A DNA stretch of 41,189 bases from a virus: the IMG/VR virus record IMGVR_UViG_3300020172_002194, positions 1-41,189 of that record; one strand, written 5' to 3'. The notes under the pieces are model-generated. The model made no database searches. It was not told the DNA's origin and saw only the letters and a list, made by a program, of their open reading frames with translations. The position numbers were made by a program, and so were the translations under genes. How positions within the stretch are numbered: the first letter of the stretch is position 1; the number at the start of each line of letters is the position of its first letter. Shown here in pieces: positions 6,328 through 33,780 of the stretch.

Positions 6328-7011
6328 TTAAATTCCAAAATTCTTTTGTTGTTCAGGATTGAATGATGTTCTAATTTCTGAAGGTGTAAAATTCTCAACT
6401 TCGTCAGTTGTTAGAATATATTCATTTTTACCTGATTTCTCCATATCCCCTTCTTTATCAATAAAAAAATCAGATAGTTTTTGATTATAAGGACCTGAAT
6501 CCAAACTTCTTAATTCTAATTTTTCTTGTGGGGTTTTTGGTCTATATTTTTCTAATTTAGCTTCTAATGAATTAACTTTATTCATAAGCTCATCCATCTC
6601 ACCTAATTTATTTTCTAAATTTTCTAAATGTTTAAATAAATTTTCAAAATACTCATCTTGTTTGTCAGAAATTTTATTTTGACTGTCAACTAAGTCAGTA
6701 ATATCTAATTCTTCAGTATCACTTTCTTCTGTTTCCCCTTCAGGTTCTCCCTCACTATCAAGTTTTTCAACATCAGGGTCAGTTGTTGTATCAATAACTT
6801 CAGGTGTTGCCGCAGCATCAGGAGTTACAGGTGCCTCAGGAGCTCCAGGGGCAGGTGCCGCTGCTGGGTCTTCAGGTGCTGGTGGTACTCCCCCTAAATC
6901 AAGTGTAGGGTCTGCAGGTGGTACCTCTTGTTCAGTAATATACTTATTGATACCTTGGTATCTTCTAATTTCTTCTAGTATTTTTTTATCGATTGACATA
7001 TTATTAACCAT
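6328..7011 (-). CDS. Probable internal capsid protein with N-terminal targeting peptide
   Basis: A 227-aa acidic protein (start 7011, or 6999 at the second ATG, MSIDKKI). The first 25-30 residues form a basic amphipathic helix (KKILEEIRRYQGINKY) ending in ITEQE. That resembles T4 capsid-targeting sequences, which the prohead protease gp21 cuts after (I/L)-x-E. A long Pro/Ala-rich low-complexity linker (about 30-75), a Glu/Asp/Thr-rich stretch (about 75-105) and a coiled coil (about 110-155, LFKHLENLENKLGEMDELMNKVNSL split by short loops) follow. The C-terminal 60 residues look globular. No enzyme motif is seen. It overlaps the 74-aa gene by 8 bp. A head-packaged or scaffold role is inferred from the peptide; other explanations remain open. 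Confidence 0.7.
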   Translation of the reverse strand: MVNNMSIDKKILEEIRRYQGINKYITEQEVPPADPTLDLGGVPPAPEDPAAAPAPGAPEAPVTPDAAATPEVIDTTTDPDVEKLDSEGEPEGETEESDTEELDITDLVDSQNKISDKQDEYFENLFKHLENLENKLGEMDELMNKVNSLEAKLEKYRPKTPQEKLELRSLDSGPYNQKLSDFFIDKEGDMEKSGKNEYILTTDEVENFTPSEIRTSFNPEQQKNFGI

Positions 7012-22542: not shown

Positions 22543-23358
22543 TTAGTATTTAGTTTTTTTGCCTCCAGATGTAGAATAAGTTTGTATTATGTTATCTGGG
22601 TCATCTTCAAAATGTTTCTTAATCGCCTCAACATTTCTAATATCATCATCGGAGAACCCTATTGTTGGTATGAAATTATTACTAACGTCATTTTTAAGGT
22701 ACGCCTTTTTATTTAATTGATTTGACAAATCTTTAATATAACTCACAAAACCTTTTAACGCTTTTACTTTTTCTTCTTCAGGATTGGCTTCAGCACCTGT
22801 TCCAAATGATACAGGATAAAATTTACATAAATCAAGATACGTTTTAATTAATTCCATATCGTTTAAGTCTTCCTCGTCTGAAAAACTTCTAAATTTTTTT
22901 AAATTTTTAACAAGTTCTTTTTTGTCAATTCCGTTGAAACCTGAAATAATATAATTATAAACCGCCTCTTTTAAAGTGTTTGGGTTATGACCCCTCGCAG
23001 TTATTATCGAAAAAATCGAACCGTTGTTGATTGCTTCCACAAAATCGTCCCAAGCAGGACCTGGTTTTGCTAACATTGAGTCAACTAAAAATGATTTATC
23101 ACCTTCAGTTCTGAAGTTTCTAAATGGATTCTCCGCAAAACCAATAATAGTTTTACCATTATACTCAAAATCTTCCTTACCTATTTGTGTTCTATAATGA
23201 GCAAAATCTTCAGTAGTCATCCCAACTTCATCACCGTCTTTATCTTTTAACATAATTCTGGTTGGCATTGTTGCAATGTTATCATCCCAATCAAAAGCGT
23301 AGTACTTTAAATCAGGTGTACCTTCTTGTGTGAATCCTTCTTTTATATTTCTTTTCAT
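22543..23358 (-). CDS. HAD-superfamily phosphatase inserted between sheath and tube genes
   Basis: A 271-aa protein with the haloacid-dehalogenase motifs: motif I FDWDDN with nucleophile D23 and acid/base D25, motif II SIITARGH with T120, and motif IV GFSDDD with D237-D239. A lysine for motif III is probably in the KKAYLKND region (about 217-224). A helical cap lies between motifs I and II. Known phage HAD enzymes include polynucleotide 3'-phosphatases and nucleotidases; substrate cannot be read here. In T4 sheath and tube genes are adjacent, so this is an insertion into a conserved late block. A hairpin separates it from the sheath gene. It could act on the nucleotide pool, RNA ends or sugar phosphates. 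Confidence 0.85.
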   Translation of the reverse strand: MKRNIKEGFTQEGTPDLKYYAFDWDDNIATMPTRIMLKDKDGDEVGMTTEDFAHYRTQIGKEDFEYNGKTIIGFAENPFRNFRTEGDKSFLVDSMLAKPGPAWDDFVEAINNGSIFSIITARGHNPNTLKEAVYNYIISGFNGIDKKELVKNLKKFRSFSDEEDLNDMELIKTYLDLCKFYPVSFGTGAEANPEEEKVKALKGFVSYIKDLSNQLNKKAYLKNDVSNNFIPTIGFSDDDIRNVEAIKKHFEDDPDNIIQTYSTSGGKKTKY

Positions 23359-27038: not shown

Positions 27039-28075
27039 ACTAATGTCGCTTCAAATGTTATTGTTGATGTTTGATTAGAGAATTCTTTTTCAATTTCAAA
27101 CTTAACAACATCATTTCCATTTACTTGTATTTTCGTCGGATTTCTACCATAATATTGATTATCAATATACACATCATAGTTGGTAACGTTATTTGTTTTA
27201 ATTAACGTTAAATCAACTTTATCATAAAATCTTTGTACAACTAAAGAATTCTCATCAATAAATTCAATAACAACAGGATAATTTCTTGGGTTTTCTAATG
27301 CAGGTCTCTTTTTCTTTCTATTACCTCCGTCTTGAACTTCATATATTTGAAAAACTCTTTCGACACCAGGTTTAACCTCAAACTCATCTTCATCTATTAA
27401 AAACCCTAACATAGTAAAGTCGTAAGTTTGTATATAGTACTTTCGTTTTTCAAGGTCCATTACTGATTCGTCAGAAACATTATCCATTATTATTGGAATA
27501 TAATGACCTTTAATGTTTGTATAGGCTTGTCTTGAAGAAAATTTTTGTAATATTGTTTTATTCAATGAGTTTAATTCTCTCATTCGATTACAAATTATTT
27601 TAATTGAGTATTTGATATCAACAGGAACTGGTTGTGGTATCTTATAAACATCCACGTTTATTCTATCACCATCAAAACTAGGAACTGAAGCGTAATAATA
27701 TTGTCTTCTATTTGGTATTGTATATAGTAATGAGGGATTAGACCCGTATTTTATTTCAGGTGCTCTAACAACACTTATAAATGGTGGTGAAACGTTTTTA
27801 TCTAAATCTTGGAAATTCCAAGTTTGAGTAAATTGAGCCCAATTTTGGGTTGTGATAATAATATCAATATTTGGGATAACTTTTCCTTCTGAAACTACTC
27901 TTAAATCATTTTTAACAAAATCTAAAAACCCTCTATCTAAATCGGCGTGCAAAATAGATTTAGGTAAAAAAGTACCGTGTTCATTTATTTTATCTAACAA
28001 CTCAACTCTTCTTGGGTATAGAGTTCTGTGAGGTGTTAAACTAATATCTTTTTTTATTTTTTTAGGAAATCCCAT
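27035..28075 (-). CDS. 15: Tail terminator / sheath stabiliser, gp15-like
   Basis: A 346-aa protein directly before the sheath gene in transcription order, as gp15 stands relative to gp18 in T4 (272 aa). The centre is the best match in type: RRQYYYASVPSFDGDRINVD, KIPQPVPVDIKYSIKIICNR, then GHYIPIIMDNVSDESVMDLE and KRKYYIQTYDFTMLGFLIDE, which parallels the gp15 segments that end in a hydrophobic strand. The N-terminus (LTPHRTLYPRRVELLDKI) is probably an arm. The last ~90 residues (about 255-346) are an extra beta-rich domain, perhaps Ig-like, absent from T4 gp15. The protein would cap the tail tube and sheath. Its ATG shares a base with the zinc-ribbon stop (TAATG). Confidence 0.75.
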   Translation of the reverse strand: MGFPKKIKKDISLTPHRTLYPRRVELLDKINEHGTFLPKSILHADLDRGFLDFVKNDLRVVSEGKVIPNIDIIITTQNWAQFTQTWNFQDLDKNVSPPFISVVRAPEIKYGSNPSLLYTIPNRRQYYYASVPSFDGDRINVDVYKIPQPVPVDIKYSIKIICNRMRELNSLNKTILQKFSSRQAYTNIKGHYIPIIMDNVSDESVMDLEKRKYYIQTYDFTMLGFLIDEDEFEVKPGVERVFQIYEVQDGGNRKKKRPALENPRNYPVVIEFIDENSLVVQRFYDKVDLTLIKTNNVTNYDVYIDNQYYGRNPTKIQVNGNDVVKFEIEKEFSNQTSTITFEATLV

Positions 28076-28620
28076 TACTTTCTTATTTCATTAATTACAA
28101 ATAATTTATTTTTTTTGTTAATCATATCAACTTCTTTTGCAGTATATACAGGTTTCTCATTTGATTTATAAACAAAACTATCGTATTTGTAAGGGTTATA
28201 CGTTACAATATTATCATTAGATTCTTCAGGTATGTTAGGGCAAGGATATTGACAATAATCAACTAAAGTACCAATAACAAATGCGTGGACATTTTTACTT
28301 TTATCAGTTCTAACTTTTTCTTTACCCCCTTGTCTAACTCTAAACTCAACATCACTTAATTTTACAAAATCAGCGTGTAAGATTACTTTTGATTTATATG
28401 TCACCGAAAATGTATGTTTATGTAAGTTATAATAAACCATAACTCGTTTACCAATAAATTCATCTTCAGCGTTGTCGTGACCACATTTGTGACAAATATA
28501 TGGGTCATCACCGCCCTCAATTAATTTCCAAGACCATCCACAAGAATCACAAACAACTTCACCATCATTAACAGACTCAAATATTAAATTTTTTTGTCTT
28601 TCCGTAATTATAATTTTCAT
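28075..28620 (-). CDS. Zinc-ribbon protein with N-terminal ITERQ peptide
   Basis: A 181-aa protein with three parts. Residues 1-16 (MKIIITERQKNLIFES) are a short peptide with ITE|R, similar to capsid-targeting ends. Residues 24-46 form a zinc ribbon, CDSCGWSW then ICHKCGHDN (C24, C27, C43, C46). Residues 55-120 hold NLHKHTFSVTYKSKVILHAD and KNVHAFVIGTLV, a pattern I associate with a small conserved phage/bacterial domain of unknown function. It sits between gp14 and gp15 with TAATG overlaps on both sides, so it is made together with neck proteins, yet T4 has nothing here. It may be packaged or bind nucleic acid. Function not known. Confidence 0.8.
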   Translation of the reverse strand: MKIIITERQKNLIFESVNDGEVVCDSCGWSWKLIEGGDDPYICHKCGHDNAEDEFIGKRVMVYYNLHKHTFSVTYKSKVILHADFVKLSDVEFRVRQGGKEKVRTDKSKNVHAFVIGTLVDYCQYPCPNIPEESNDNIVTYNPYKYDSFVYKSNEKPVYTAKEVDMINKKNKLFVINEIRK

Positions 28621-29135
28621 TATAAACCTCTAAATTCATTTTCACTTACAGGCGTCGCTATTATAGTCCTATAAAATGGTTTATAACCACCGTAAGTATG
28701 TTTATTGTCAGATACAACCCTACCATCATTAGCTACAACATAATATCTAACTCTTGTCTCTGTTTCATAGTACCCAATGTAGTCCCCATATTCAATATCT
28801 ATATCTAATTCTTCTAAATGAGATTGATAAACAGATATTCTAACATTACCAGGTTCAAACTGTTCTATTTTAGAATTACCTAAATTTTTATTTTCAGGTG
28901 CCATAACTTGGACAAAGGCTTTAAACTCTACAGGAGTTCTAAACTTAATACCATCAGAAACAGTTTCACCATAAACATCATCAGTTTTAGTTTTATATCT
29001 ATCAACTCGATATAATACTAATGTGAAGTTCATATCACCTTCTAACCACTCTCTACCCATCTCAACATCTAATGCGTAGTCTTCGGCTCCAAAGAATTTT
29101 CCTAATCTTGTAATTGGTACTTTATTTTGACTCAT
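28620..29135 (-). CDS. 14: Neck protein, gp14-like
   Basis: Start taken at the ATG at 29135 (MSQNKVPITRLGKFFG), which follows a TATTTAT element by 34 nt; an upstream extension of the frame would begin at a hydrophobic stretch not typical of neck proteins. The 171-aa protein shows the gp14 plan: VLYRVDRYKTKTDDVYGET (about 37-55), a strand-rich middle with VRISVYQSHLEELDIDIEYG and DYIGYYETETRVRYYVVA, as in T4 gp14 (YVSPDLIFGED, GDLIYFP). T4 gp14 is longer (256 aa). It would join head and tail with gp13. First of three tightly coupled genes (gp14, zinc ribbon, gp15). Confidence 0.7.
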   Translation of the reverse strand: MSQNKVPITRLGKFFGAEDYALDVEMGREWLEGDMNFTLVLYRVDRYKTKTDDVYGETVSDGIKFRTPVEFKAFVQVMAPENKNLGNSKIEQFEPGNVRISVYQSHLEELDIDIEYGDYIGYYETETRVRYYVVANDGRVVSDNKHTYGGYKPFYRTIIATPVSENEFRGL

Positions 29136-29168
29136 ATTGATAAATATCCAAAAATTTATTATCATTAC

Positions 29169-29175
29169 ATAAATA
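29169..29175 (-). promoter_or_regulatory. TATTTAT element before gp14
   Basis: Sense strand CATTATTTATGTAATGATAA, 34 nt upstream of the gp14 ATG, within the 47-bp divergent gap to the SNF2 helicase gene. A second copy at 29140-29146 is only 5 nt from the ATG and is probably chance. Confidence 0.45.
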
Positions 29176-29182
29176 ATGTACT

Positions 29183-30964
29183 TTGGAAAATAACAACCGA
29201 GAAATAAGTCAATTATTAGAACAAAAAGCACTCAACATCCTTGAGTCGTATTCTGGTGCAAACAATTATTTACTAAGGTTAAAAAGACAACAAGAACTTA
29301 ATAAAAAGTTTTATCCTACAAGAGCACAATCTGAATATATTGTAAATTTTCATAATGTAGTTCCTAAAATAGCTAAAAAGTGGGTAGATTTAGACCCGTA
29401 TTTTGCTAAGAAAATTGCCGACGAAAAATTATACACCAAAATACCTGAACAAGTTTGGATTGAAAAATTATTAGTTGAGAAAGATAAATCATATCACATT
29501 TGGGGAAAAATTTTTGAGAATGAGGATTTACACGAATTTTGGTTACCAAAAGGTGCGGTCATAAAAACTCATAAAGTTGAGAAAGTTGAAATAGATTATT
29601 CCAAATATGGACATAGACCACCTTTACAACATCAGAAAGAAGCTATTGAAAAATTAGTTGGTTGTAAAAAATTTATTTTGGCTGATGATATGGGGTTAGG
29701 TAAAACTACTTCAACAATTATTGCCGCGTTAGAAACAGGTTCTAAAAAAGTTTTAATCGTGTGCCCCGCATCTTTAAAGATAAATTGGATGAGAGAGATT
29801 CAAAATTACACTGATAGAAGTGTTTATATTTGTGAAGGTAAAAATTACTCAACGGAACACGACTTTGTTATAATAAATTACGATATACTTAAGAATTTTC
29901 ATACAACAGAAAAAAAAGAAAGACAAGATTCTTTAATTTTAAAATCAAAGTTTGATTTAGTTATTTTAGATGAAGCTCACGCGGTTAGTAATTCACAAGC
30001 ACAAAGAACTAAATTAGTTAACGATTTTGCAAAGACCATTGATAAAATTTGGTTGTTATCAGGTACACCTATGACATCACGACCAATGAATTATTATAAT
30101 TTATTAAATTTAATTGATAGTCCTGTTGCTCAAAATTGGATGGCTTATGCAATTAGATATTGTGAAGGATATCAATTTAAAGTTGGTAATAGGAAAATTT
30201 GGAAAACCACAGGAGCGTCTAATCTTGAGGAACTAAGAGACAGGACATCTATACAATTCTTAAGAAGATTAAAAGAGGATGTTTTAGATTTACCTGATAA
30301 AATCATAACTCCCGTATACCTAAGATTACGTTCAAAATTATATGAAGAATTAATGGGTGAGTATTATGATTGGTATGATAAAAAAGAAGAAGAATCATCA
30401 TCCCTAACCTTACAATTTTCAAAACTAATGAAAGTTCGTCAAATAATTGCCGAAGAAAAATTACAATCAACCTTTGAATTAGCTGAAAATATTTTAGAAC
30501 AAGGTAAAAAAGTTATAATCTTTACCAATTTTACAGACACGTTAAAAAAGATTGTTGAGAAATTTGGAAAAGAATGTGTATATCTTGATGGTAGTTGTTC
30601 TCCAGTTCAAAGACAATATGCGGTGGATGAATTTCAAACTAATAATAAAATTAAAATATTTGTAGGGAATCTTAAAGCCGCTGGAGTTGGTTTAACCCTT
30701 ACTGCCGCTGAAGCGGTTATTATGAATGACTTGTCTTTTGTACCTGCAGAACACAGTCAAGCTGAAGACCGAGCGTATAGATACGGTCAAAAATCAAATG
30801 TGTCCGTATTTTATCCGATTTTTGAAAATACTATCGAAGGTGTTATCTACGACATACTTTCTAAGAAAAAACAAATTATTAGTGTTGTTATGGGGGATAA
30901 TGTTAACTCAGACCCTGCAGATGTTGTTGAAGAAATCCTTAAGATGATTCAAAACAGTAGATAA
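29183..30964 (+). CDS. SNF2/SMARCAL1-type DNA helicase
   Basis: A 593-aa SWI2/SNF2 ATPase. Motif I ADDMGLGKTT (about 167-176), Ia CPASLKINW, motif II DEAH (about 262), motif III LLSGTPMTSRP, and motifs V-VI AAGVGLTLTAAEAVI with EDRAYRYGQ near the C-terminus are all present. The compact layout, without a long SNF2 insertion, resembles SMARCAL1/HARP-type annealing helicases, which remodel forks; T4 UvsW may be the functional equivalent though it is another helicase branch. The start must be TTG (29183), because an in-frame stop lies at 29174-29176 and no ATG occurs before the conserved core. Its plus-strand position starts a block with the SOD fusion and gp13. Confidence 0.9.
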   Translation: MENNNREISQLLEQKALNILESYSGANNYLLRLKRQQELNKKFYPTRAQSEYIVNFHNVVPKIAKKWVDLDPYFAKKIADEKLYTKIPEQVWIEKLLVEKDKSYHIWGKIFENEDLHEFWLPKGAVIKTHKVEKVEIDYSKYGHRPPLQHQKEAIEKLVGCKKFILADDMGLGKTTSTIIAALETGSKKVLIVCPASLKINWMREIQNYTDRSVYICEGKNYSTEHDFVIINYDILKNFHTTEKKERQDSLILKSKFDLVILDEAHAVSNSQAQRTKLVNDFAKTIDKIWLLSGTPMTSRPMNYYNLLNLIDSPVAQNWMAYAIRYCEGYQFKVGNRKIWKTTGASNLEELRDRTSIQFLRRLKEDVLDLPDKIITPVYLRLRSKLYEELMGEYYDWYDKKEEESSSLTLQFSKLMKVRQIIAEEKLQSTFELAENILEQGKKVIIFTNFTDTLKKIVEKFGKECVYLDGSCSPVQRQYAVDEFQTNNKIKIFVGNLKAAGVGLTLTAAEAVIMNDLSFVPAEHSQAEDRAYRYGQKSNVSVFYPIFENTIEGVIYDILSKKKQIISVVMGDNVNSDPADVVEEILKMIQNSR

Positions 30965-30979
30965 ATTTATAATTCTTGT

Positions 30980-30986
30980 TATTTAT
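30980..30986 (+). promoter_or_regulatory. TATTTAT element before SOD-nuclease fusion
   Basis: On the plus strand GTTATTTATTAGATAAATAA lies in the 45-bp gap after the SNF2 gene; TATTTAT ends 24 nt before the ATG. This is a case where the element follows the gene onto the other strand. Confidence 0.45.
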
Positions 30987-31009: not shown

Positions 31010-32677
31010 ATGAAAAATCTAGTAAATAAGATTGAAACGTTAGAAGAGGAAGTTCAAAAAAATGAAAAAGACTTCGCAAAAAAATTCTTCATCAACGAAA
31101 TGAAAAAAATAGGTATTGAAAAATTACCTTACTCGTATAGTTCCCTTAAAAGATTTATAGACCCCGAAACAATGGATGTCCATTATAATAAACATTATAA
31201 AGGATACGTAGAAAAATTAAATTTAGCTTTAGATAAGAAAAAATTCGGGGATTTAGATTTAGAACAGATTGTTAAAACAATAAGTAGATTTAATAGTACG
31301 GTTAGAAATAACGCAGGTGGGGCCTATAACCACGCATTATTTTGGAAAATGTTATCTCCAAGAACTCAAAAACCAAAAGGGTTAATTTTAAAACGTATTG
31401 AAAAAGAATATGAAACTTTTGGTAATTTTAAAAAGAAGTTTGAAGAAATTGCCAAAGAAAGATTTGGGTCTGGTTGGGTTTGGTTAGTTGTAACAAAAAC
31501 TAATAATCTAAAAATAATGTCAACCCCAAATCAAGACAACCCGTTAATGAACGATATTAAAAACGGTGGTTACCCGATTTTAGGATTAGATTTATGGGAA
31601 CACGCATATTATCTAAAATATCGAAATAAAAGAGATGAATATATCAAAAACTTTTGGGACGCGGTTAATTGGGATTTTGTTGAGAAGTTGTACAAAATGA
31701 AAATTGAAACTCGTATTGACGAGGATATTGTGATGCAACAACTTATGAACGCATCAAATAAAGATATTATTACAGAACAAGAGGCTAAATCTCAAAGTTG
31801 TTCTCACGGAGAAGAAATTAAGTTTAAACAATTATTATTCCCTTCTTCAGATTTAAAACAAAGAACAACTCTATATTCAAGATTTAAACAAGACTATGTT
31901 AAAGGATGGATGGATATTTTAAAAAAATCTTACCCTGAAAATTGGAAAGAAAAAAATTCATTGTTTGTAGGTCACGAATCTGGATTATATAACAAAGAAA
32001 ATGTTAGGTCATTATTAATGAATTTAACCTCATCATATTCCGCTTTTTGTATTATTCATAAAGATGTTAACCAATATTTAACTCAGAATAATCAATCCCC
32101 TATTGAATATACTAATGACCCAAAACATAATTTAAATGAATTAAGAAGATTTTTTTCTATTTTAGACGGAATTCGTTCCATCATTTTTAACAGAGAAAAA
32201 CAATCAAACACTTTAAAACAAATCGGGGGTATTCTTAAAAAGACCGATTGTCTTGGTAAAAGAAACGAAGACGCCGCTTGTAAGATAATTAATCAAAACT
32301 TAGGAGATGGTTCTTGTAAAATAGAATCAGGGGCTGGTCACTCTAATGATATGTTATCAGGTATCGACGCAACTTTAAATTTGGAAGGTAAAAATTTAAC
32401 CGCACAAATAAAACCTTATAAAACTATTGTAGTGTCTGATAACTTTATTGCAATACAAGGTTCATCAAGTACACAAGAATATAAAAAAGTAGACACCATT
32501 ATTTTTGTTAATGTTAAATCATTGTCTGTAAAAATATTTAAAACCAATAATATTAAAATTGAGAAAGGTAATTTTTTAATTCCAAAAGAAAATGAAATTA
32601 TGTCAATTGTTGGGACAGGTGAAATTGAATTAATTGATTGTAACAAATATTTATCAGAAAACGCAATATGGGAATAA
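31010..32677 (+). CDS. Fe/Mn superoxide dismutase fused to a PD-(D/E)XK nuclease-like domain
   Basis: A 555-aa two-domain protein. Residues about 38-230 are a complete Fe/Mn superoxide dismutase: LPYSYSSLKRFIDPETMDVH with H58, NNAGGAYNHALFW with H108, GSGWVWLV, and DLWEHAYYL with D194 and H198, the four metal ligands. This would disproportionate superoxide. A linker with IITEQE (253-258) leads to residues about 265-555. This part holds NEDAACKIINQN (E420), GAGHSNDMLSGIDATL (D453) and LTAQIKPY (Q466, K468), the pattern of a restriction-type PD-(D/E)XK fold in which E is replaced by Q. I cannot tell whether that half is active. Reading frame is continuous. Its last bases overlap gp13 by 10 bp, so it is coupled to a neck gene. 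A bacterial-type SOD of normal length is about 200 aa. Confidence 0.88.
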   Translation: MKNLVNKIETLEEEVQKNEKDFAKKFFINEMKKIGIEKLPYSYSSLKRFIDPETMDVHYNKHYKGYVEKLNLALDKKKFGDLDLEQIVKTISRFNSTVRNNAGGAYNHALFWKMLSPRTQKPKGLILKRIEKEYETFGNFKKKFEEIAKERFGSGWVWLVVTKTNNLKIMSTPNQDNPLMNDIKNGGYPILGLDLWEHAYYLKYRNKRDEYIKNFWDAVNWDFVEKLYKMKIETRIDEDIVMQQLMNASNKDIITEQEAKSQSCSHGEEIKFKQLLFPSSDLKQRTTLYSRFKQDYVKGWMDILKKSYPENWKEKNSLFVGHESGLYNKENVRSLLMNLTSSYSAFCIIHKDVNQYLTQNNQSPIEYTNDPKHNLNELRRFFSILDGIRSIIFNREKQSNTLKQIGGILKKTDCLGKRNEDAACKIINQNLGDGSCKIESGAGHSNDMLSGIDATLNLEGKNLTAQIKPYKTIVVSDNFIAIQGSSSTQEYKKVDTIIFVNVKSLSVKIFKTNNIKIEKGNFLIPKENEIMSIVGTGEIELIDCNKYLSENAIWE

Positions 32678-33780
32678 TAGCAGAACCACATAGGTCAAAA
32701 TTATATACAAGAGTAAAACATCTTTTAGGTGCACCGATAAGAAGTGTAGAATTAGAAGACGAAATGTTAGACTCATTGTTAGAATTAGCAATTGGAGACT
32801 ATTCACAATACATTCAAGATTGGTTAATTGAATCTCAATGGTCTTCATTACAAAACTTAAATTTAGATGAACAATCTTTATCAAGAGCGTTTGTAACAAG
32901 AAGTTTAGATTATGAAACTCGTTATAGTTACGCATATTCTAAAATTGTAGGTTTACAAGCTGGAGGTGATTGGGTTTTGAAAAAAGATTTTATAGAATTA
33001 AAGAAAGGTCAACAATTATATGAGATACCTAAAGGTAGGGAAATTAATGAACTACTTTGGTTTACACCTGCAGAATTAAGTAATATCTTGTTTGACCCTT
33101 GGTCATTTGGGGTTATGGGGGGTCCTGGTCTTGGAGGACCTGGAGGTTACTCTCAATTAGGGTATAGTGGTTCTTATTTCTTAATGCCAGCGTTTGATAT
33201 GTTATTAAGAATGCAAGAAATTAACATACAAAGAAGAATTATATCATCTGAATTAACATATAGAATTACCGCTTTACCTGATGGTAAAAAAATGGTTCAT
33301 CTAATGAACACCCCTGGAGGTAAATTTGATTTTGGAAACTCTAACTTTCATAGTGGTAAAGTTTGGTATTGGTATTACGATGTTGATGGTCCTGATAGAG
33401 ATAAGTGTTTAGCAGAAAATCCTGATATTATTAAACTACCTTCAGATGTACCGTTTGACGAAATTTCTTGGATTGAATTAAATAATCCTGCACAACAATG
33501 GGTTAGAAGATGGTTCATTGCTCTTTGTAAAGAAACTTTAGGTAGAGTTAGAGGAAAATACAGTGGTAATTTAAAGACACCTGATAGTGAGTTAACTATG
33601 GATTACCAAAGTTTATTGACGGAAGGTAAGGATGAAAAATCTAAATTAGAGGAAGAACTTAAATTGAGATTAGAAAGAATGAGACCTGAAAAGATGATGG
33701 AAAAAGAGGCTTTAACGGCAGAAAATTTAAATAAGGCAATGAAGTTTAGAGCAATGCCTCGACAAATATACGTAATTTAA
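32668..33780 (+). CDS. 13: Neck protein, gp13-like
   Basis: A 370-aa protein (T4 gp13 is 309 aa). The N-terminus, RVKHLLGAPIRSVELEDEML then IGDYSQYIQDWLIESQW, is like the neck-protein helices of T4-type phages. The segment CKETLGRVRGKYSG (about 291-305), followed by DYQSLLTEGKDEKSKLEEEL (about 311-330), is the other conserved block. Between lie a Gly-rich loop (GVMGGPGLGGPGG, about 148-160) and beta strands. gp13 and gp14 close the head portal and join it to the tail. Gene 13 is on the plus strand while gp14 and gp15 are on the minus strand about 3.5 kb away, so the T4 order 13-14-15 is broken by an inversion or insertion. The ATG overlaps the end of the SOD fusion gene. Confidence 0.75.
   Translation: MGIIAEPHRSKLYTRVKHLLGAPIRSVELEDEMLDSLLELAIGDYSQYIQDWLIESQWSSLQNLNLDEQSLSRAFVTRSLDYETRYSYAYSKIVGLQAGGDWVLKKDFIELKKGQQLYEIPKGREINELLWFTPAELSNILFDPWSFGVMGGPGLGGPGGYSQLGYSGSYFLMPAFDMLLRMQEINIQRRIISSELTYRITALPDGKKMVHLMNTPGGKFDFGNSNFHSGKVWYWYYDVDGPDRDKCLAENPDIIKLPSDVPFDEISWIELNNPAQQWVRRWFIALCKETLGRVRGKYSGNLKTPDSELTMDYQSLLTEGKDEKSKLEEELKLRLERMRPEKMMEKEALTAENLNKAMKFRAMPRQIYVI

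Follow-up and report, generated by a model that had tools for sequence, protein, structure and literature searches.

The virus record IMGVR_UViG_3300020172_002194 of IMG/VR, analysed here over its positions 1 to 41,189 (the window, 41,189 nucleotides), contains on its plus strand, at 31010..32677, an open reading frame (ORF) with an ATG start, whose product of 555 residues joins a superoxide dismutase (SOD) to a C-terminal half with a predicted PD-(D/E)XK nuclease fold. This SOD-nuclease fusion ORF is genuine; it is conserved and evolves under purifying selection. Its product is reasonably probable to be a precursor that is packaged in the phage head, cut into a SOD and a nuclease, and injected together with the DNA. 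Several features can be read directly in the sequences compared: the fusion and its catalytic residues, (L/I)xE sites, the protease gene and the gp23 site of related phages, an element upstream of the gene, a natural fission of the ORF and the loss of its SOD part.

The ORF had been described in an earlier reading of the window made from its letters alone (the sequence-only reading), which left its occurrence in other phage genomes to be checked; 108 fused ORFs were found, so the fusion is not unique to one contig. IMG/VR was scanned with the window protein and loci aligning across most of the query were kept: 229 of the 232 pattern-matched stretches encode a relative, and 79 distinct loci were retained. 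Two further scans with alignment queries gave at least 80 loci each, many of them on the same contigs; the C-terminal half of the window protein as a lone query recovered only 3 near relatives, and an alignment query was needed to obtain the relatives of this domain. The collection holds 141 ORFs with distinct C-domains (at least 241 partly overlapping loci), of which 108 are fused to SOD, 30 have no SOD within the ORF and 3 are paralogues on the minus strand; each scan is biased towards relatives of its own query, and the counts of fused and stand-alone forms are not natural frequencies. The 108 fused ORFs include near-copies, and 58 are left below 90% identity. Four of the 30 ORFs without SOD (L098, L101, L149 and L160) are frameshift splits with the SOD lying upstream, and another (L325) is genuinely divided into two genes. 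Frameshifts within or between the SOD and nuclease parts were seen in these four loci and in L145, one of them beside an A-run, and may represent sequencing error or gene decay. The ratio of nonsynonymous to synonymous substitution rates (dN/dS) against six relatives is 0.03-0.07 for the SOD and 0.02-0.25 for the C-domain, by a simple estimate whose values are rough, silent sites being near saturation.

The phage collection gave 30 matching records, all of them covering less than 80% of the query: the SOD part is matched by 28 and the C-terminal half by two (LR756501 and LR756503). A Foldseek search of BFVD aligned the UniProt entry A0A6J5L953, a protein of 501 residues from an uncultured Caudovirales phage, over 511 columns at 43% identity. 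Thus, the same fusion appears to be already present in databases, under the name of superoxide dismutase only, as far as alignment and name allow the comparison. A literature search among open-licence PMC papers returned no fused or virion-borne phage SOD among the matches listed, and nothing usable on superoxide in phage defence.

The SOD domain occupies residues 36-232 (31115..31705, plus strand). Pfam places Sod_Fe_N at residues 36-116 (E 5.6e-22) and Sod_Fe_C at residues 123-226 (E 1.2e-38), both above cut-off (131.7 versus 20.9 bits and 78.5 versus 27 bits). The four Fe/Mn metal ligands pointed out by the sequence-only reading, H58, H108, D194 and H198 (His-His-Asp-His), are indeed present and are kept in 108/108 fused ORFs; the same holds for G104 and Q175, which we take to be the second-shell Gly and Gln of Mn-type enzymes, counterparts of G77 and Q146 in the MnSOD of E. 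coli. At E <= 0.001, a profile built from 49 sequences retrieved 162 distinct PDB sequences; the best 60 of them are all SODs, with mostly Mn enzymes at the top. The cut-off of the NCBIfam SOD equivalog models was missed (195.7 bits against 363 for the best Mn model); these models are narrow, and membership in the wider Pfam family stands. On these sequence criteria residues 36-232 are a Fe/Mn superoxide dismutase of the Mn type; this half is apparently intact and putatively active as an enzyme.

The phage domain has in common with bacterial Mn SODs of the SodA type the fold, the ligands, G104 and Q175, residues whose roles are presumably the same; unlike these enzymes, the phage protein is extended by a helix at its N-terminus and by a nuclease-like module at its C-terminus. 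Among the 80 bacterial SOD loci kept, the best is 52% identical, and 68 of the 80 rows are Bacteroidota by record title, so the host of the phage is probably a member of this phylum. In a quick, unrooted tree one branch, with a support of 99 in the SH-like approximate likelihood ratio test (SH-aLRT), separates the 80 bacterial SODs from 46 phage SODs, namely those of 45 of the 69 non-redundant fused rows and of the window. SODs of other viruses have been described. The chlorovirus PBCV-1 produces a Cu/Zn SOD, A245R, from a late gene and packages it in the virion, and less superoxide is found in PBCV-1-infected cells than with a relative without the SOD gene (excerpts of PMC7019647). A245R is thus a precedent for a virion SOD, although it belongs to another SOD family and to an algal virus, and the excerpts of that paper mention no fusion. 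SODs of freshwater phages are listed among genes for defence against reactive oxygen species (ROS), with the proposal that they shield infected or grazed cells from reactive oxygen (excerpts of PMC6802176).

The C-terminal module comprises residues 257-555 (31778..32674, plus strand). Its predicted PD-(D/E)XK fold spans residues 264-535; E420, D447, D453, Q466 and K468 lie in a PD-(D/E)XK-like core that extends roughly from residue 410 to 535. The E...D-x12-QxK pattern noticed in the letters corresponds to E420...D453-x12-Q466-x-K468, and all five residues are kept in 108/108 fused ORFs and in 90/90 rows of an alignment of C-terminal halves (A5) that includes stand-alone forms. The QxK variant is compatible with nuclease activity, as in Mrr and I-Ssp6803I. 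This half was modelled alone because the model of the whole protein placed its domains poorly relative to each other (predicted template modelling score, pTM, 0.49) and its 50 best PDB rows were all SODs; from the 90 aligned C-terminal halves, AlphaFold2 gave a predicted local distance difference test score (pLDDT) of 89 and a pTM of 0.85. With this model, the best Foldseek match in the PDB is I-Ssp6803I (E 4.2e-3), followed by Hjc resolvases, none of them at E <= 0.001, and VIA-align 2 is led by Hjc (Z 7.9), I-Ssp6803I (7.3), NhoI (7.0) and SPARDA (6.9), Z values that are middling according to the tool's own note. Judged by their titles, the matches at ranks 1-10 of Foldseek and 1-33 of VIA-align are presumably all PD-(D/E)XK-type nucleases. 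The assignment is based on this uniform list of fold matches and on the invariance of E420, D453, Q466 and K468 (90/90), not on the Z values. Hjc, I-Ssp6803I and NhoI, the best fold matches, share with the modelled half an alpha-beta core and the expected succession of E, D and QxK; unlike them, the phage half has no credible family match in Pfam, PHROG, NCBIfam or PDB-sequence searches. PADLOC gave a single weak SduA/DUF4263 match (E 0.0033), to a stand-alone form, and the N-terminal helical region of the module gave no convincing match. Thus, when the two halves were searched separately and their structure was predicted, Pfam confirmed the SOD, and the model and its fold matches bore out a PD-(D/E)XK-like partner, with a predicted nuclease fold, a putative activity and no sequence-family match.

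The prohead protease of T4, gp21, cleaves after the motif L/I-X-E, and foreign proteins and enzymes fused to the T4 targeting sequence are packaged and delivered (excerpts of PMC9026906). In the window protein the N-terminal helix, residues 1-30 (31010..31099, plus strand), is a candidate capsid-targeting leader, and its end forms the predicted site 1, I28-N29-E30 (31091..31099); among the 49 non-redundant fused proteins used for all column-wise site counts, E30 is invariant (49/49) and L or I is found at P3 in 45. The predicted sites 2, I236-D237-E238 (31715..31723), and 3, I254-T255-E256 (31769..31777), lie on the same strand between the SOD and the nuclease. E238 is kept in 108/108 fused ORFs, with L/I at P3 in 44/49, and an aligned third site is found in 39/47; in the window the Glu concerned, E256, precedes the aligned column by two residues, and several other misses show a similar shift. 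The linkers of the 58 fused proteins that share less than 90% identity are 29-39 residues long; 53 of them contain two or more (L/I)xE motifs, the other 5 contain one, and no linker is without. When the linkers were shuffled (2000 shuffles), a mean of 11.1 of 58, and a maximum of 21, had at least two motifs, and random segments of the same proteins gave a mean of 0.7 in the SOD (maximum 4 of 500) and 2.6 in the C-domain (maximum 8 of 500). The boundary between N-terminal helix and SOD has the motif in 53 of 57 proteins, L099 being not scorable. In the class with linkers of 29 residues (n=31) the two sites read (L/I)-N-E|S and (L/I)-(S/T)-E|(G/S), with the Glu present in 31/31 and 30/31, while the remainder of the SOD-nuclease linker is mostly variable. 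The case for splitting rests on these paired sites, placed in a variable linker at domain borders, together with a two-gene form of the protein.

Some observations weigh against such a function of the motifs. Position P1' of site 1 is Met in 39/49 proteins, and is mostly S, T, G, A or Q at the other sites; in 5 of the 58 linkers one site is either missing or has V or M at its P3, and the motif is missing from 4 of the 57 N-terminal boundaries. Moreover, E197 in the SOD active site (48/49) and E377 in the C-domain (29/43) fit the motif too, and L/I is found at P3 in 9 of 48 conserved Glu columns of three neighbouring proteins (the helicase, the gp13-like protein and the polymerase); taken by itself, a conserved Glu with L/I at P3 was accordingly judged a weak argument. 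Finally, the N-terminal helix does not resemble the ITES-type tags found on other proteins of the same phages. An internal start at M31, yielding a free SOD, was also considered and was rejected as an obligatory feature, Met being present at that position in those 39 proteins only.

In L325 the two halves are encoded by consecutive genes. The SOD, of 241 residues, keeps the N-terminal helix, with a leader ending LITE|M, and its C-terminal end reads KINNLKK-stop where the fused forms have their second site, without any site there. The nuclease, of 278 residues, is the product of the next gene and has a leader of its own, MKTVETSPYLILLTE|K. Since this SOD shares 81% identity with its counterpart in the fused L066, and the nuclease groups with stand-alone forms, recombination is likely to lie behind this arrangement. 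The tree of C-domains (95 rows) places 19 stand-alone nucleases in a single clade (100/100) nested within the fused forms; since most stand-alone nucleases have this position, they would derive from loss of the SOD, provided that the root lies near the paralogues or L083. Both the paralogues and L083, a stand-alone form encoded by a 735-kb phage, fall outside the fused forms in this tree. In L333 the SOD was lost separately from the 19-member clade, and a scar, INEMKKIEIEKL...SIISEGKSERC, is still visible. A site just before Cys264 is retained in 20 of the 26 listed stand-alone rows; the six that were not counted weigh against the proposal: L321, L331, L370 and L379 are without a site, in L378 the only match is I-L-E at the extreme N-terminus, and the motif match of L083 lies inside the domain. 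Of 8 records chosen because they hold stand-alone forms, one, that of L325, contains PF02777.

A nuclease paralogue is found in L018, L042 and L162 behind an unrelated domain, with a linker that again has two (L/I)xE motifs. These proteins of 495-501 residues (L018:2118-3623, L042:1832-3337 and L162:414-1907, all on the minus strand) have a tag-like start and zinc-ribbon-like Cys motifs; a stretch resembling, by eye, the phrog_586 ORF of the window is followed by the linker with the two motifs and then by the nuclease module.

The presence of a suitable protease was examined in 14 related contigs, picked for length and scanned for prohead protease and gp23. The protease family PF03420 (Peptidase_S77 prohead protease) is found in 10 of them and gp23 (PF07068) in 11, and the gp23 leaders read LINE|A in 11/11. 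The contig of a 97% relative (L007/G014) encodes both proteins. Neither was found on the 41-kb window record or on the 67-kb contig that encodes an identical protein (G001), which counts against the proposal, both being fragments. As in IPI-IPIII and Alt of T4, whose targeting sequences are cut by gp21, the leader of the fusion ends in (L/I)-x-E, and the related phages encode protease and gp23; unlike the T4 internal (ejection) proteins, the fusion has two serial enzyme domains with further predicted cut sites between them. The leader motif and the genes of the related phages suggest that the protein may belong to the T4-type capsid-targeted internal proteins.

A TATTTAT element, a candidate late promoter, lies at 30980..30986 (plus strand), 23 nt before the ATG of the fusion. 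A second one, at 32648..32654 (plus strand), falls within the 3'-terminal part of the fusion ORF, 13 nt before the gene of a neck or head-tail adaptor protein (32668..33780, plus strand; phrog_211, E 3.2e-11), for which the name gp13 comes from the sequence-only reading. In the window the element also precedes the tail sheath, the tail tube and two large unassigned ORFs located among the tail genes; none precedes the recombinase, single-stranded DNA-binding protein and polymerase genes. In the related contigs G002, G006 and G008 it occurs at most 60 nt upstream of 54/206, 52/204 and 100/389 ORFs, respectively; a control position within genes gave 4, 3 and 6, and the other strand of these upstream regions gave 20, 28 and 41. 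It precedes gp21 in G002 and G006. Its distribution does not fully agree with a late promoter, since in the window it is also found before a DnaB-like helicase and is absent before the baseplate wedge and hub genes, and it is missing before gp23 in all three contigs.

The sequence-only reading had also considered the fusion as coupled to the gp13-like gene by an overlap of 10 bp. The overlap exists, but it is not conserved, being replaced by a gap of 21 bp in L018 and of 25 bp in L117, a stand-alone form, and the gp13-like gene has its own TATTTAT; a conserved coupling was therefore rejected. Conversely, its suggestion of a late, possibly virion-borne role gains indirect support from the predicted sites, the protease and gp23 genes of the relatives, the TATTTAT element and the leaders of the split genes.

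Upstream of the fusion, a SNF2-like helicase identified by Pfam and PHROG searches (29183..30964, plus strand, TTG start) overlaps by 49 bp the start of an opposite ORF (28620-29231, minus strand), and one of these two starts may be wrong. Another conserved protein of the window (22543-23358, minus strand), which begins with MKRNIKEGFTQEGTPDLKYYAFDWDDN and adjoins the tail sheath gene, has relatives in G002, G006 and G008 and no PHROG match; it is presumably HAD-like.

According to the model that we favour, the ORF would encode, in a T4-like phage, the common precursor of two enzymes packaged in the head; packaging, cleavage, injection, the two enzyme activities and their biological targets are the steps that we infer. 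The N-terminal helix (1-30) would take the precursor into the prohead core, like the capsid-targeting sequence of the T4 internal proteins, and a gp21-type prohead protease would cut after E30, E238 and E256, generating the leader 1-30, a Mn-type SOD of normal size (31-238), a spacer and a PD-(D/E)XK nuclease-like protein (257-555). SOD and nuclease would then exit the head together with the DNA; before the expression of phage genes, the former would clear superoxide from the surroundings of the incoming genome and from the cell just infected, and the latter may act on host DNA or on a host defence. Packaging would thus move the protection given by SOD to the moment of entry.

Other explanations can be proposed for the same protein. 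It could be the product of an ordinary auxiliary metabolic gene, with the SOD acting against superoxide in the cytoplasm of the infected cell and the nuclease-like half either acting there too or anchoring the SOD to DNA, the protein being uncut and unpackaged. Such a role would agree with the report of SODs among the ROS-defence genes of freshwater phages (excerpts of PMC6802176) and with the intact SOD residues; however, it leaves unexplained the paired (L/I)xE motifs in a variable linker, the leaders on both halves when these are split and the upstream element common to the sheath, tube and gp13-like genes, and we consider it rather unlikely. A late assembly nuclease appears improbable as well: here the PD-(D/E)XK half would trim or resolve DNA at packaging or head completion, with the SOD as a passenger protecting the packaged DNA. 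The nearest folds, Hjc, I-Ssp6803I and NhoI, include Holliday junction resolvases, in the window, in L018 and in L117 the gene lies beside that of the gp13-like protein, and the nuclease half is retained where the SOD was lost; yet synteny alone gives no function, a fold Z of 7-8 is common to many PD-(D/E)XK enzymes and the predicted cut sites would have no explanation.

The sequence-only reading had also suggested a redox-linked control of the nuclease, that is, a permanently bifunctional enzyme in which C264 (31799-31801) and C347 (32048-32050) could act as a switch. Both residues are kept in 108/108 fused ORFs, and in stand-alone rows C264 is kept in 20/20 and C347 in 15/20, being replaced in 5. 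This cysteine pair is the only point in favour, and the idea was not upheld: the presence of the halves as separate genes in L325, the loss of the SOD in one clade and again in L333, and the predicted cut sites between the halves all oppose a permanent union, which we regard as very improbable. Lastly, the frameshifts in L098, L101, L149, L160 and L145 might suggest an assembly artefact or a pseudogene. This was rejected, its probability being negligible, as the fusion recurs in 108 ORFs with distinct C-domains, within a set of at least 241 partly overlapping loci, dN/dS is well below 1 and the catalytic residues are conserved.

The proposal of a packaged, self-splitting precursor may extend to other proteins of these phages. 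In G002, G006 and G008, unrelated proteins, mostly of no known function (L188-L221), have common N-terminal tags, MK..ITES(Q/K/R) or MKK..LTESDL, which are possible capsid-targeting tags. In the window, the ORF at 28075-28620 (minus strand) begins with MKIIITER, and a Pro- and acid-rich ORF of 227 residues at 6328-7011 (minus strand), without PHROG match, has a start, ...INKYITEQ, that holds (L/I)xE. Tags were counted in 31/374 ORFs of G008 (internal windows, mean 8.2, maximum 15 of 200 draws) and 13/195 of G002 (5.0, maximum 12); the census is weaker in G006 (7/197; internal mean 3.8, maximum 10) and in the window (1/28; 0.7, maximum 5). Tagged ORFs have TATTTAT upstream more often than the others (18/35 versus 188/764; Fisher p 8e-4, in a comparison chosen post hoc). 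Scans of ten tagged proteins with Pfam and PHROG indicated no clear function. It is possible, and we put it forward tentatively, that these phages pack SOD and nuclease as a self-splitting precursor and that the shared tags (MK..ITES.., MKK..LTESDL..) and the (L/I)xE linkers form a general head-loading code for injected proteins. If so, dozens of uncharacterised phage proteins could become recognisable as injected cargo by sequence alone.

If the fusion is indeed packaged, cut and injected, the phage would bring a ready-made antioxidant enzyme along with its genome, and superoxide in the first minutes of infection would be a real and directly testable barrier. The protein would represent a natural counterpart of the engineered loading of enzymes into T4 through a targeting leader, and a leader followed by (L/I)xE at domain borders would provide a sequence rule for injected cargo in uncultured T4-like phages.
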